Assembly: GCF_000024985.1 (NCBI RefSeq)
Contig: NC_013523.1
Location: 1,674,001-1,738,000 of the forward strand
Length of the DNA stretch: 64,000 nucleotides
Direction of reading: 5' to 3'
Source: Sphaerobacter thermophilus DSM 20745
GTDB lineage: Bacteria > Chloroflexota > Chloroflexia > Thermomicrobiales > Thermomicrobiaceae
The translations under genes and the position numbers were made by a program. The notes under the pieces were generated by a model. The model had not been told where the DNA came from. It did no database searches and saw only the letters and a list, made by a program, of their open reading frames with translations. Each line of letters starts with the position of its first letter. Position 1 is the stretch's first letter. This document shows positions 16,841-62,805 of the stretch, piece by piece.

Positions 16841-16942
16841 CGCTCATCCAGAGTGGTGGAGGGAACGGCCCTGCGAAGCCCGGCAACCAGCGCGTACTGC
16901 GCCAGGTGCCAATGCCGGCGGACAGTGTCCGCACGATGAGCG
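16841..16942 (+). promoter_or_regulatory. SAM-I (S-box) riboswitch aptamer
   Basis: The conserved S-box core is clear: GGTGGAGGGA, GGCCC, GAAGCCCGGCAACC and GGTGCCAAT occur in order with normal spacing. P1 is a perfect 8-bp helix between 16841-16848 and 16935-16942. It is followed at 16957-16984 by an intrinsic terminator, so this is a transcriptional OFF switch: S-adenosylmethionine binding stabilises P1 and allows termination before metX. It is the first of two tandem sensors. Confidence 0.95.
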
Positions 16943-23369: not shown

Positions 23370-24368
23370 CTACGCGCCCAGCACGACGTTCGCAGCGGCG
23401 CCAACCCGCGCCGCCTCGACCACGTCGGAGAGGATCGCACTGGCCGTCGGCAGCGGTCCCGCTCCCTGCCCGCTGAGGACCACCGGGCCGACACGGTCCC
23501 CCGTCAGCTCGATGGCGTTGAAGTTGGCCGAGACGTGGGCCAAGAGATTGTCCCCCGGCACGAACGTCGGCGCGACCTGGAGGCGGACGGCGTCGCCGTC
23601 CCGTTCCGCGCTCGCGATCAATTTGATCGCTCCTCCGCGCTCCCGCGCCGCCGCGACCTCCTCGGCCGTGACGCCGGTGATGCCGGTGCGGTCCACCTCG
23701 TCCGGGCGAACGTGCCGCCCAAGCATGAGCGAAGCCAGGATCGCGAGCTTGTACGCGGCGTCGTAGCCCTCAACGTCTGCGGTCGGGTCAGGCTCGGCAT
23801 AGCCCAGCCGCTGAGCCTCGGCCAGGGCCGTGTCGTAGGCTGTTCCCTGCTCCGCCATCTGGCTCAGGATGAAGTTGGTCGTGCCGTTCACGATGCCGCG
23901 CACGCGCGTGATCCGGTTCGCAGCCAGAATCTGCCGGTACGACACCAGCAGCGGGATGCCGCCACCGACGCTGGCCTCGAAGAGGAGCGCCCGCTCCGCT
24001 TCCTGAGCCGCCGCGGTGAGTTCGCCAAAGTGTTTCGCCAGGGCCTCCTTGTTCGCCGTCACCACGTGCTTGCCCGCGCGCAGGCAGCGCAGCATGAAGT
24101 CGGCCGCCGGCTGTTCCCCTCCCAGGACCTCGACCACCACGTCCACGCCGTCGTCGCTCAGGATGGTCGCCAGGTCGGTGGCGATCGTCTCCGGTGGCAG
24201 GTCCGCCCGCGCCGCACGGTCGCGCGAGCGCTCCAGTACCGCCTGCACCACCAGGCGCAGCCCGTAACGCTCCGCGATCAGATCGCCCTGCTCCCGGATC
24301 GCCCGGGCCACCGCCGAGCCGATCGTCCCCAGCCCCAGGATCGCCACGCCGACCTGTCTGTCGTTCAT
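23370..24368 (-). CDS. hom: Homoserine dehydrogenase (short form without ACT domain)
   Basis: This 332-residue NAD(P)-dependent enzyme reduces aspartate semialdehyde to homoserine. The ATG at 24368 follows GGAGGCGAGG. The Rossmann motif GLGTIGSAVAR, TANKEALAKH, the catalytic-domain VNGTTNFILSQM and AAYKLAILASL are clear. It ends at the catalytic domain and lacks the ~90-residue ACT domain that gives threonine feedback in most bacterial Hom proteins. It is divergent from asd, which supplies its substrate and carries a candidate attenuator. Confidence 0.92.
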   Translation of the reverse strand: MNDRQVGVAILGLGTIGSAVARAIREQGDLIAERYGLRLVVQAVLERSRDRAARADLPPETIATDLATILSDDGVDVVVEVLGGEQPAADFMLRCLRAGKHVVTANKEALAKHFGELTAAAQEAERALLFEASVGGGIPLLVSYRQILAANRITRVRGIVNGTTNFILSQMAEQGTAYDTALAEAQRLGYAEPDPTADVEGYDAAYKLAILASLMLGRHVRPDEVDRTGITGVTAEEVAAARERGGAIKLIASAERDGDAVRLQVAPTFVPGDNLLAHVSANFNAIELTGDRVGPVVLSGQGAGPLPTASAILSDVVEAARVGAAANVVLGA

Positions 24369-24410
24369 CCTCGCCTCCATCGTTTCCCCGCTCGCTGCCC
24401 TGCCCGCGCC

Positions 24411-24439
24411 TTGACGGCGCAGCCAATCCCTGCTATCGT
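24411..24439 (+). promoter_or_regulatory. asd promoter
   Basis: TTGACG at 24411-24416 and TATCGT at 24434-24439 are 17 bases apart. Transcription would start near 24446, giving a ~280-base leader that contains the peptide frame and the attenuator. Confidence 0.65.
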
Positions 24440-24512
24440 CTGCGCAGCGTCCCCCTGAGGGTACGCGTCGGACTTGAGGACGGCAAGGCCGTTCCAGGAG
24501 AGCACGGAACCG

Positions 24513-24596
24513 ATGGTTTCGCTGCGCGCGATCATCACCATTATTGACGGCATGACTATTACGCCCGCCGGTGCACAGGCGGGTGCGGTGACCTGA
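24513..24596 (+). CDS. Candidate Ile/Thr-rich leader peptide of asd
   Basis: This 27-codon frame starts at an ATG (AGGAG lies about 12 bases upstream) and stops at TGA (24594-24596). Codons 7-17 (24531-24563) read Ile-Ile-Thr-Ile-Ile-Asp-Gly-Met-Thr-Ile-Thr, so 8 of 11 are Ile or Thr, both end products downstream of aspartate semialdehyde. This is the pattern of the enterobacterial thr operon leader peptide. The frame sits between a good promoter and an intrinsic terminator. It is too short to be a functional protein and is read here as a ribosome-stalling sensor. Confidence 0.75.
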   Translation: MVSLRAIITIIDGMTITPAGAQAGAVT

Positions 24597-24657
24597 TCGC
24601 GCCAACACAACGCCTGTGAGGGACCGGCAGAGGTAAGCACCTCTGCCGTTTTTGTTT
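24567..24657 (+). terminator. Attenuator of asd: antiterminator arms and intrinsic terminator
   Basis: The terminator is a 10-bp stem (24625-24634 with 24639-24648) with an AAGC loop, followed by TTTTTGTTT. A competing antiterminator can form from 24567-24572 with 24623-24628 (6 bp) and 24574-24581 with 24611-24618 (8 bp). It consumes the 5' end of the terminator stem. The upstream arm begins directly after the Ile/Thr codons. A stalled ribosome would leave it free, whereas a ribosome reaching the stop codon would cover it. Pairings were found by eye and no energies were computed. Confidence 0.75.
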
Positions 24658-24723
24658 GCGCCGTACCGCCGCCGCGGGCGGCGCCAAGCCGGCGGGTCAC
24701 GCCGCGGAAAGGGTCGTGAGGGT

Positions 24724-25779
24724 ATGGGTGAGCGGATCGATGTCGCCGTACTGGGGGCGACGGGGAGCGTCGGCCAGCGCTTCGTGCAACTGCTCGATGG
24801 GCATCCGTGGTTCAGGGTGGCCGAGTTAGTCGGCAGCGAGCGCTCAGCAGGCAAGCGCTACGGGGAGGTCTGCGACTGGCGCCTGAGCGATGCGCCGCCA
24901 CGGGAGGCGGCCGAGATGCGGGTGCAGCACTATGAGGAGCCGGTGCGCAGCCCGGTCGTTTTCTCGGCTCTGCCGGGAGGCATCGCTGGCGAGGTCGAGG
25001 CGAGCCTCGCCGCCGAGGGCAAGCGCGTCTTCACCAACGCGCGCGACCATCGCATGGATCCGGATGTCCCGCTGATGATCCCTGAGGTCAACGCGGACCA
25101 CGTCGCGGCGATCCAGGCGCAGCGCGAGCGGCGCGGCTGGAAGGACGGCTTCATCGTCACCAACCCGAACTGCTCGACGATCCACCTCGTCCTGGCGCTC
25201 AAGCCGCTCTGGGACGCCTTCGGCATTGAGCAGGCCATGGTCACCACCCTGCAGGCTGCGTCGGGCGCGGGCTACCCCGGCGTCCCGTCGATGGATCTGA
25301 TCGACAACGTGGTCCCCTTCATCGGCGGCGAGGAGGAGAAGATCGAGACGGAGACCAAGAAGCTCCTCGGCAGCTACGGGCCGGACGGCTTCCGCTACGC
25401 GGACCTCGCGATCAGCGCCACCTGCACCCGCGTCCCGGTGCGCGACGGCCACACCGAAGCGGTCTCGCTGAAGCTCGGTCGGAAGGCGTCGGTGGAGGAG
25501 GTAGTCGAGATCCTGGCCAGCTATCGCGGCCGGCCGCAGGAGCTTGGCCTCCCCTCGGCGCCCGAGCGGCCGATCGTTGTCCGCACTGAGAACGACCGAC
25601 CACAGCCGATCCTGGACCGCAACGTCGAGCGTGGGATGGCCTCCGTCGTGGGCCGTGTCCGCCCGTGCAACGTGTTCGACGTCCGCTTCGTCGTCCTCGG
25701 GCACAACACCATCCGCGGCGCCGCCGGGGCGTCGATCCTCAACGCAGAACTGCTACGCGTCGAGGGCTACCTCGACTGA
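24724..25779 (+). CDS. asd: Aspartate-semialdehyde dehydrogenase
   Basis: The 351-residue enzyme reduces aspartyl phosphate to aspartate semialdehyde, the branch point to Lys, Met, Thr and Ile. The ATG at 24724 gives the Rossmann start VAVLGATGSVGQRFVQLL. The catalytic Cys150 lies in NPNCSTIH, a form typical of the archaeal/fungal-type branch, and the domain HTEAVSLKL fits. Upstream starts lie inside the attenuator and are rejected. The divergent neighbour hom uses its product. Confidence 0.93.
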   Translation: MGERIDVAVLGATGSVGQRFVQLLDGHPWFRVAELVGSERSAGKRYGEVCDWRLSDAPPREAAEMRVQHYEEPVRSPVVFSALPGGIAGEVEASLAAEGKRVFTNARDHRMDPDVPLMIPEVNADHVAAIQAQRERRGWKDGFIVTNPNCSTIHLVLALKPLWDAFGIEQAMVTTLQAASGAGYPGVPSMDLIDNVVPFIGGEEEKIETETKKLLGSYGPDGFRYADLAISATCTRVPVRDGHTEAVSLKLGRKASVEEVVEILASYRGRPQELGLPSAPERPIVVRTENDRPQPILDRNVERGMASVVGRVRPCNVFDVRFVVLGHNTIRGAAGASILNAELLRVEGYLD

Positions 25780-36914: not shown

Positions 36915-37289
36915 ATTGAATGGCGTGGGCAGGACGGTCGCTGGCCGTTCCGGCCAGAGGAAAGTCCGAGCTGCATAGAGCGAGGGTGCCCGGCGAAAGC
37001 CGGGGCAGCGTTCGCCGGTGGCGCTGACAGTCCAGATCGGCACCGTGGCGGGTACCCCGCCGCGGTGAGAGCAACAGAGACCAATGCCGGGCCCTCTGCG
37101 GTCCGGAGTGAAAAGGGCAATCCTCCCCGCAGCAATCTCCGAATGGGCCGCTATCAGGTTGCTCGCCGAGGCCCGAAGTCGAGAGCAGCCACGGAGGCGA
37201 CGACGTGGCCGGTCGGTGGCCACGAGCCATCGGCCGAGACAGATGACCGTCAAGAACAGAACTCGGCTTACTCGCCCACGCCATTCAAT
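36915..37289 (+). ncRNA. rnpB: RNase P RNA (type A)
   Basis: The gene starts and ends with a perfect 16-bp P1 helix (36915-36930 with 37274-37289). The conserved GAGGAAAGTCCGAGCT near the 5' end and CAAGAACAGAACTCGGCTTA near the 3' end form P4 and flanking elements. Internal AGTGAAAAGGG and GCCCGAAGTC elements also fit. About 375 bases is normal. The RNA is the catalytic part of RNase P, which matures tRNA 5' ends. It lies between two tRNA genes on the same strand. Confidence 0.93.
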
Positions 37290-37294
37290 GACAT

Positions 37295-37371
37295 GGTGCC
37301 TCTAGCTCAATTGGCAGAGCACTGGTCTGTGGAACCAGGGGTTACGGGTTCAAGCCCCGTGAGGCACCCCA
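37295..37371 (+). tRNA. tRNA-His (GTG anticodon) with encoded G-1
   Basis: The acceptor stem GTGCCTC/GAGGCAC is extended by G at 37295 opposite C at 37368, the histidine identity pair. The anticodon loop CTGTGGA gives GTG. The T loop is GGTTCAAGC. CCA is encoded (37369-37371). It begins six bases after rnpB. Confidence 0.95.
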
Positions 37372-62527: not shown

Positions 62528-62615
62528 GCCGAGGTGGCGGAATAGGCAGACGCGCTAGCTTGAGGGGCTAGTGCCCGTTTAGGGCGTGGGGGTTCAAATC
62601 CCTTCCTCGGCACCA
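62528..62615 (+). tRNA. tRNA-Leu (GAG anticodon)
   Basis: An 88-base class II tRNA with acceptor GCCGAGG/CCTCGGC, anticodon stem CTAGC/GCTAG with loop TTGAGGG (GAG), a long variable arm, GGTTCAAATC and encoded ACCA. Confidence 0.95.
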
Positions 62616-62629
62616 ACACCGCGAGGTGC

Positions 62630-62702
62630 GGGCGATTAGCTCAGTTGGTAGAGCGCCACGTTTACACCGTGGATGTCAGAGGTTCGAGCCCTCTATCGCC
62701 CA
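62630..62702 (+). tRNA. tRNA-Val (TAC anticodon)
   Basis: The acceptor is GGGCGAT/ATCGCCC. The anticodon stem CCACG/CGTGG holds loop TTTACAC (TAC). The T loop is GGTTCGAGCC. The sequence after the discriminator A is CAA, so CCA is not encoded. Confidence 0.94.
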
Positions 62703-62732
62703 CAACTGCGCGGGATGACCCGGCGACAGCCC

Positions 62733-62805
62733 GCCGAGGTAGCTCAGTCGGTAGAGCACGGCACTGAAAATGCCGGTGTCGCCGGTTCGATCCCGGCCCT
62801 CGGCA
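62733..62805 (+). tRNA. tRNA-Phe (GAA anticodon)
   Basis: The acceptor is GCCGAGG/CCTCGGC. The anticodon loop CTGAAAA gives GAA. The T loop is GGTTCGATCC. CCG follows the discriminator, so CCA is not encoded. Confidence 0.94.

Follow-up and report, generated by a model that had tools for sequence, protein, structure and literature searches.

A probable threonine/isoleucine leader-peptide attenuator upstream of asd in Sphaerobacter thermophilus and its relatives

The leader of asd, the gene for aspartate-semialdehyde dehydrogenase, in Sphaerobacter thermophilus is very probably a classical ribosome-mediated transcription attenuator, in which a short open reading frame (ORF) rich in Thr and Ile codons would govern termination ahead of the gene. 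Its parts, their conservation, a codon bias specific to the leader frame and the covariation of the pairing arms were observed directly. The asd product is the precursor common to Thr and Ile. The locus lies in the window, that is, the whole 64,000-nucleotide stretch of DNA that was analysed (G000:C1:1674001-1738000), within a genome of 3,993,764 bases on two contigs. GTDB places the order of Sphaerobacter inside Chloroflexota. The genus is now assigned to the phylum Thermomicrobiota in the NCBI taxonomy, and "phylum" in all counts below means the grouping of genome taxonomy (GTDB-type), not that of NCBI.

A promoter, a 27-codon ORF with eight Ile/Thr codons in 11 and an intrinsic terminator, all of which a preliminary description of this DNA had reported, are present in the sequence and in scans (Table 1); the scans of the locus returned one sigma-70-like promoter (shuffle mean 0.0) and one intrinsic terminator (shuffle mean 0.3). 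Codons 7–17 of the ORF read IITIIDGMTIT. The 14-bp antiterminator, described earlier as built from two pairings and overlapping the terminator stem, is likewise there (GCCGGT at 24567-24572 with ACCGGC at 24623-24628, and CACAGGCG at 24574-24581 with CGCCTGTG at 24611-24618), the overlap being confined to the first bases of the terminator 5' strand, 24625-24628. Its 5' arm, said to lie right after the control codons, starts one codon past the last of them. In the predicted fold, an early hairpin competes with the antiterminator for this arm. For the window leader alone, the arm-pairing energy was reached by 5/500 arm shuffles. The match between the divergent homoserine dehydrogenase and the PRK06349 model covers model positions 3-322 out of 430, and the protein thus seems to be without the C-terminal part.

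Table 1. Features of the asd leader and its surroundings (window positions), with an aromatic leader elsewhere in the same genome.
Feature	Position	Strand	Evidence
SAM riboswitch	16841-16942	+	RNA-family search of window
Homoserine dehydrogenase, divergent from asd	23370-24368	-	PRK06349 model
Sigma-70-type promoter TTGACG-17-TATCGT	24411-24439	+	promoter scan
Shine-Dalgarno-like AGGAGAG of leader ORF	24496-24502	+	sequence; 10 nt 5' of ATG
Leader peptide ORF MVSLRAIITIIDGMTITPAGAQAGAVT*, 27 codons	24513-24596	+	sequence; frame bias over 23 leaders
Control codons ATC ATC ACC ATT ATT GAC GGC ATG ACT ATT ACG	24531-24563	+	8/11 Ile/Thr
Early (1:2-like) hairpin CGCCCGCC/GGCGGGTG, inside ORF	24562-24585	+	predicted fold
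Antiterminator 5' arm GCCGGT-g-CACAGGCG	24567-24581	+	sequence, arm pairing
Antiterminator 3' arm CGCCTGTG-aggg-ACCGGC	24611-24628	+	sequence, arm pairing
Intrinsic terminator stem-loop CGGCAGAGGT-AAGC-ACCTCTGCCG, 10 bp	24625-24648	+	terminator scan
U tract TTTTTGTTTG	24649-24658	+	terminator scan
asd, aspartate-semialdehyde dehydrogenase	24724-25779	+	TIGR00978, 459 bits
Class A RNase P RNA	36922-37286	+	RNA-family search of window
Four tRNA genes	37296-37368 and 62528-62805	+	RNA-family search of window
Aromatic leader MDTRTDCDQHRYEYQDWYYFYFTPPALLVGQSVLIR and terminator before DAHP synthase, window's genome	G000:C1:278033-278164	-	

We searched for asd in 61 genomes of the order and found it in 51; the reading of upstream regions leaves out G033 and G022, where asd is cut by a contig end and the leader sits on a different contig. 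Families f1 and f3 account for 24 of these asd genes; 23 were readable upstream (18 in f1 and five in f3), and all 23 are preceded by a Thr/Ile-rich ORF of 24–28 codons, whose stop lies 25–33 nt 5' of a terminator core of the GGCAGAGG, GGCAGGGG or GGCAGGAG type. An intrinsic terminator before the structural gene was found in the window and in 23/23 homologous leaders, a stable early hairpin is predicted at the same place in 23/23 (−13.7 to −25.5 kcal/mol), and a promoter match of at least 9/12 lies upstream of 20/23. A scanner common to all leaders found at least five Ile/Thr in 11 codons in 20 of the 23, with just four in those of G017, G020 and G011, and an aromatic run in none (0/23). Apart from the Thr/Ile run, followed by a nearly constant A-G pair, the leader peptides vary nearly throughout; examples are MNAVRSATRTTTGTTATRCAGVRSGSP in genus g5, MRQLVIITTTGMTTTTTAGTRSEVVD in g3 and MATQGLAITTTITTTPAGSARWRSA in g12.

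The codon bias belongs to one frame. In the region upstream of the arm, 149 of 387 in-frame codons in the 23 homologous leaders (38%) encode Ile or Thr, against only 21/364 and 14/364 (4–6%) in the other two forward frames, and shuffles of these leaders gave a mean of 41.8 (sd 5.6), 0/5,000 of them reaching 149. With one leader per genus the count was 62/166, compared with 18.5 (sd 3.8) in shuffles, again reached by 0/5,000. These frame-bias counts mark the leader as a short ORF rich in codons for end products of the pathway. All four Thr codons are used in the bias. Leaders of g5 use almost exclusively Thr codons, and Ile joins in g1, g2, g3 and family f3, a distribution best explained by Thr as the presumed constant signal and Ile as an extra one in some genera. 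The bias on its own is no proof that Thr and Ile tRNAs are sensed.

Antiterminator arms able to pair are present in 23/23 asd leaders, and the two arms have changed together. Among 10 genus representatives, pairing each arm with its own partner rather than with partners from other genera gave a summed energy of −384.6; permutations averaged −280.7 (sd 15.8), and 0/20,000 of them reached the own-partner sum. In the aligned asd leaders, 98.3% of the cells of an 11-pair structure are paired in register, whereas the same structure slid by 1–3 columns is paired in 28–57%. An antiterminator alternative to the terminator has therefore been kept by compensatory change.

In families f2, f4 and f5, no Thr/Ile leader stands directly before asd (0/26 genomes read). 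Where the region was traced further up, asd follows the aspartate kinase gene (lysC), and the leader precedes that operon: all 20 scored lysC-asd upstreams carry one (for example MNDRGRTTTGTMAMTVISTTEITTIPPAGSGVRG in G054), with at least six Ile/Thr in 11 codons in 19/20 and four in the remaining one. This scoring covers 20 of the 26 genomes, the stretches from G059, G058 and G037 being without the kinase motif and the contigs of G049, G031 and G051 too short; NCBIfam identified the kinase in three cases, one of them weak, and elsewhere the assignment comes from tblastn or the KFGGTSV motif. Own-arm pairing in 19 lysC leaders, some of them from one genus, averaged −29.5 vs. −25.4 (sd 0.78) and was matched in 0/20,000 permutations; G041, whose ORF call ran on, was left out. 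A strict terminator scanner passes 16 of the 20 lysC leaders, and the other four have a hairpin with a poorer T run. In G051 and G053 a hairpin terminator lies directly before asd, with no Thr/Ile ORF alongside.

In f1, where lysC stands alone, 0/16 scored upstreams carry a Thr/Ile leader (L271 is outside this count), which rules out an equivalent leader before lysC of that family. Since the leader precedes lysC-asd in f2, f4 and f5 and does not precede the stand-alone lysC of f1, the signal follows asd through operon rearrangement. The preliminary description had regarded asd alone as the target, which is correct for f1 and f3 but fails in f2, f4 and f5, where the leader lies before lysC of the lysC-asd operon. 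It had also proposed homologous leaders as a test, and these retain the short ORF, the bias towards Ile/Thr and arms that covary (23/23 asd leaders, 20/20 lysC-asd leaders, 0/20,000 permutations).

Outside the order, the Thr/Ile leader was absent from all 29 asd upstreams of the phylum and from those of all 74 named genomes; among 77 asd upstreams of named genomes, an ORF with a terminator occurred in three, all members of this order. It is therefore no generic feature of asd upstreams, and a general asd attenuator across bacteria is ruled out by these counts (0/29 and 0/74). As a separate observation, 12 Acidobacteriota asd upstreams (L063, L074, L078, L085, L087, L088, L092, L093, L096, L097, L102 and L127) share a different attenuator-like leader, with an RKRxGRKRAxRVG-like stretch in the ORF and a GCCGAC..GTCGGC terminator, and given its recurring Lys codons this leader could possibly sense lysine.

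From these features we infer translation, stalling, kinetic competition, readthrough and a response to Thr/Ile. RNA polymerase would start near 24446, as judged from the promoter, and transcribe the leader ORF with a ribosome following. When Thr (and Ile) is plentiful, the ribosome would reach the stop codon (24594-24596) and cover the antiterminator 5' arm, so that the terminator forms and transcription stops before asd. A shortage of charged Thr- or Ile-tRNA would stall the ribosome on codons 7–17, and the free 5' arm would pair with the 3' arm before the 3' half of the terminator exists; the antiterminator would then take up the base of the terminator, and polymerase would read through into asd. 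An untranslated leader would have its 5' arm tied up in the early hairpin.

For the folding test, base-pair probabilities were calculated for a ribosome whose edge lies at +15 from the P site. In most leaders the modelled antiterminator probability approaches 1 when the stall is early in the run and the transcript ends in the terminator loop. It declines when the ribosome halts on any of the last one to three control codons, where it would cover the arm at least in part, and on the last codon it is near 0 in most leaders. A ribosome at the stop codon leaves the terminator dominant. At equilibrium, the complete terminator is favoured in most leaders, even at stalls. The preliminary description had compared the leader with the enterobacterial thr operon, and E. 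coli thrL behaves alike in the same test, with an antiterminator probability of 0.77 at the control codons (truncated transcript) and 0.03 at the stop, and a terminator probability of 0.92 in the full transcript whatever the ribosome position. In the modelled folds of both systems, stalling favours the antiterminator in truncated transcripts and not at equilibrium with the full terminator, where a plain thermodynamic switch model fails. Because the terminator wins the equilibrium once complete, the attenuator model needs co-transcriptional kinetics, and we retain this kinetic form since thrL of E. coli, a proven attenuator, does no better in the equilibrium test. The choice between antiterminator and terminator would be kinetic in both.

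It is very improbable that a structured RNA senses a metabolite or a tRNA directly, as a riboswitch or T-box, and works the terminator while the ORF is incidental. T-boxes are indeed common in these genomes (60/61 with a match at E <= 1e-3, 25/61 over the cut-off; the window's genome has 11 matches), and the window contains a SAM riboswitch at another place; however, the strongest signal across genera is the codon bias of a reading frame, for which a riboswitch has no need, and the leader sequence is variable apart from that bias. An Rfam search of 24350-24760 at E <= 10 gave no fitting family (four matches, far below their gathering scores), and the T-box covariance model (RF00230) had no match at the locus; on this search we reject a riboswitch or T-box there.

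A chance ORF beside a constitutive or partial terminator, which tunes asd or ends another transcript, seems to us slightly less probable still: short ORFs are common and equilibrium folds mostly favour termination, but conservation in 23/23 and 20/20 leaders, the frame bias, the arm covariation and the lack of such a leader in the outgroup asd upstreams (74 and 29) all stand against it. We give equally little credence to arrest of the ribosome by the nascent leader peptide on a small molecule, with a signal other than tRNA charging. The nearly invariant A-G pair after the control run would suit such a mechanism; yet the two residues fall in the codons of the antiterminator 5' arm, and the peptide is otherwise not conserved. 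As these codons form the arm, RNA pairing explains the invariance, and attenuation through ribosome stalling on the Thr/Ile codons is the reading we prefer.

The asd attenuator is not the sole one of its kind in the phylum, where leaders of similar design precede genes for DAHP synthase, tyrS and pheS. A covariance model built from the 23 asd leaders only was run on 158 genomes of the class and 400 of the phylum, and the 81 non-training matches that we examined lie before DAHP synthase (39), lysC (10), tyrS-like genes (8), pheS (3) or none of the reference genes (21); the identities of DAHP synthase, pheS, tyrS and chorismate mutase were checked on representatives. Some of the 21 resemble ordinary gene-end terminators (L193, L194). 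In addition to the aromatic leader in the window's genome (L161; Table 1), DAHP synthase leaders with aromatic runs include SYWWFYFYFTPP, WFAYYFSPP and FWFYYFSGG, and such runs were seen at L163, L167–L169, L189, L196–L199 and L374–L376. In a sample independent of the model (69 DAHP synthase upstreams, one place each, from 100 genomes with a match, passing over matches that started far into the protein), 36/69 have a terminator, 30/69 have at least three aromatic residues in eight, and 17/69 at least four. The tyrS leaders of families f10 and f30 have Tyr runs, e.g., ..YYYRSALWRGRA...

Further places were noted individually. At L183, L225, L230 and L234, a Tyr-run leader (YYYR, YYYYR) and a GGCAGAGG terminator precede tyrS. 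The pheS leader of genus g4 (L164, L165, L195) has the same terminator, a single Phe codon and several His codons, the peptide at L164 being MGARRGQYQCTVCISHHVHFSPPALPVGHAVLAR. By eye, a similar leader and terminator precede an apparent large subunit of glutamate synthase at L170, L190 and L378, and at L393 (G166:C14:9095-9121) the same terminator and an aromatic leader, ..INFYYRSTFTRSS.., precede an apparent methyltransferase gene.

The terminator stem itself recurs. Fifteen of 21 relatives carry the stem GCAGAGG-N(2-8)-CCTCTGC, at 25 places in all, of which eight are before asd, 11 before DAHP synthase, two before pheS, one before lysC and one before a glutamate synthase-like gene, with two in G019 for which the next gene was not read. 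In the window's genome it occurs at two places only, the asd and DAHP synthase attenuators. Since the backwards control pattern gives 0–3 places per genome, the number of stems is unremarkable and their places are remarkable. The stem with a T tail occurs at 32 places in 28 of 111 phylum genomes, the control at none, and 26 of the 32 have a same-strand DAHP synthase gene 34–1,108 nt downstream. Pairing leaves the near-invariance of the stem unexplained because the antiterminator touches just the stem base. One reading is that the likeness may come from copying of one module; another is that it may reflect selection for a particular terminator. Tentatively, and with rather less than even confidence, we suggest that Chloroflexota and their Thermomicrobiota relatives carry one reusable attenuator scaffold, copied between operons and retargeted by exchange of the codon run alone, and that something beyond antiterminator pairing preserves its nearly invariant terminator stem. 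The scaffold would consist of the early hairpin, a GCCGG-type antiterminator and the GCAGAGG/CCTCTGC terminator, and its targets would be asd or lysC-asd for Thr/Ile, DAHP synthase for Tyr/Phe/Trp, tyrS for Tyr and possibly pheS for Phe.

Taken together, the asd leader would widen the known range of classical leader-peptide attenuation by a lineage on which the literature searched gave no report. It would put a branch-point enzyme, encoded by asd or lysC-asd, under the control of Thr/Ile and illustrate how a signal can remain attached to its gene through changes of operon structure. The DAHP synthase, tyrS and pheS leaders suggest that duplication and a codon swap can give an attenuator a new target. 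The mechanism class itself is known; what is surprising is a phylum-wide set of attenuators with differing codon runs and a common terminator stem.

T-box RNA binds tRNA directly and has no translated ORF. T-box leaders, abundant in these genomes, resemble the asd leader in answering uncharged tRNA by transcription antitermination and differ from it in this direct binding, and 24350-24760 has no T-box match. As T-boxes are also widespread here, both kinds of sensor of tRNA charging could be compared within one organism.

According to the accessible part of PMC2965389, leader peptide systems had, to its authors' knowledge, been shown only in Proteobacteria and Actinobacteria, to which it adds Firmicutes. 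In PMC3766115, five Chloroflexi genomes appear in a survey with Rfam leaders, and gamma-proteobacteria are put forward as a possible origin of amino-acid attenuators. In the literature searched, including the accessible parts of PMC4833913 and PMC9413887, we found neither leader-peptide attenuation in Chloroflexi nor a leader-peptide attenuator of asd; Lopatovskaya et al. (2010) could contain related predictions. The branched-chain leaders of Actinobacteria (ilvB), as presented in the accessible text of PMC1262725, are alike in having short ORFs with regulatory codon runs and a terminator outside Proteobacteria, but carry Ile/Val/Leu runs on ilvB operons; for actinobacterial threonine and lysine operons, the same text reports no conserved RNA structure.

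The enterobacterial thr attenuator (thrL-thrABC; RF00506) controls thrABC, whereas the leader here precedes asd or lysC-asd, and the E. coli thr antiterminator pairs with most of the terminator 5' strand, whereas the present one takes just the base of the stem. Membership in the Rfam family Thr_leader (RF00506) is ruled out, with no match at the window locus and 0/61 genomes of the order over the gathering score. The two systems nevertheless have in common a short leader ORF with a run of Thr/Ile codons, an antiterminator made of the ORF 3' end and a stretch reaching the terminator 5' strand, a terminator before a gene of the aspartate pathway, and the same behaviour in the folding test.
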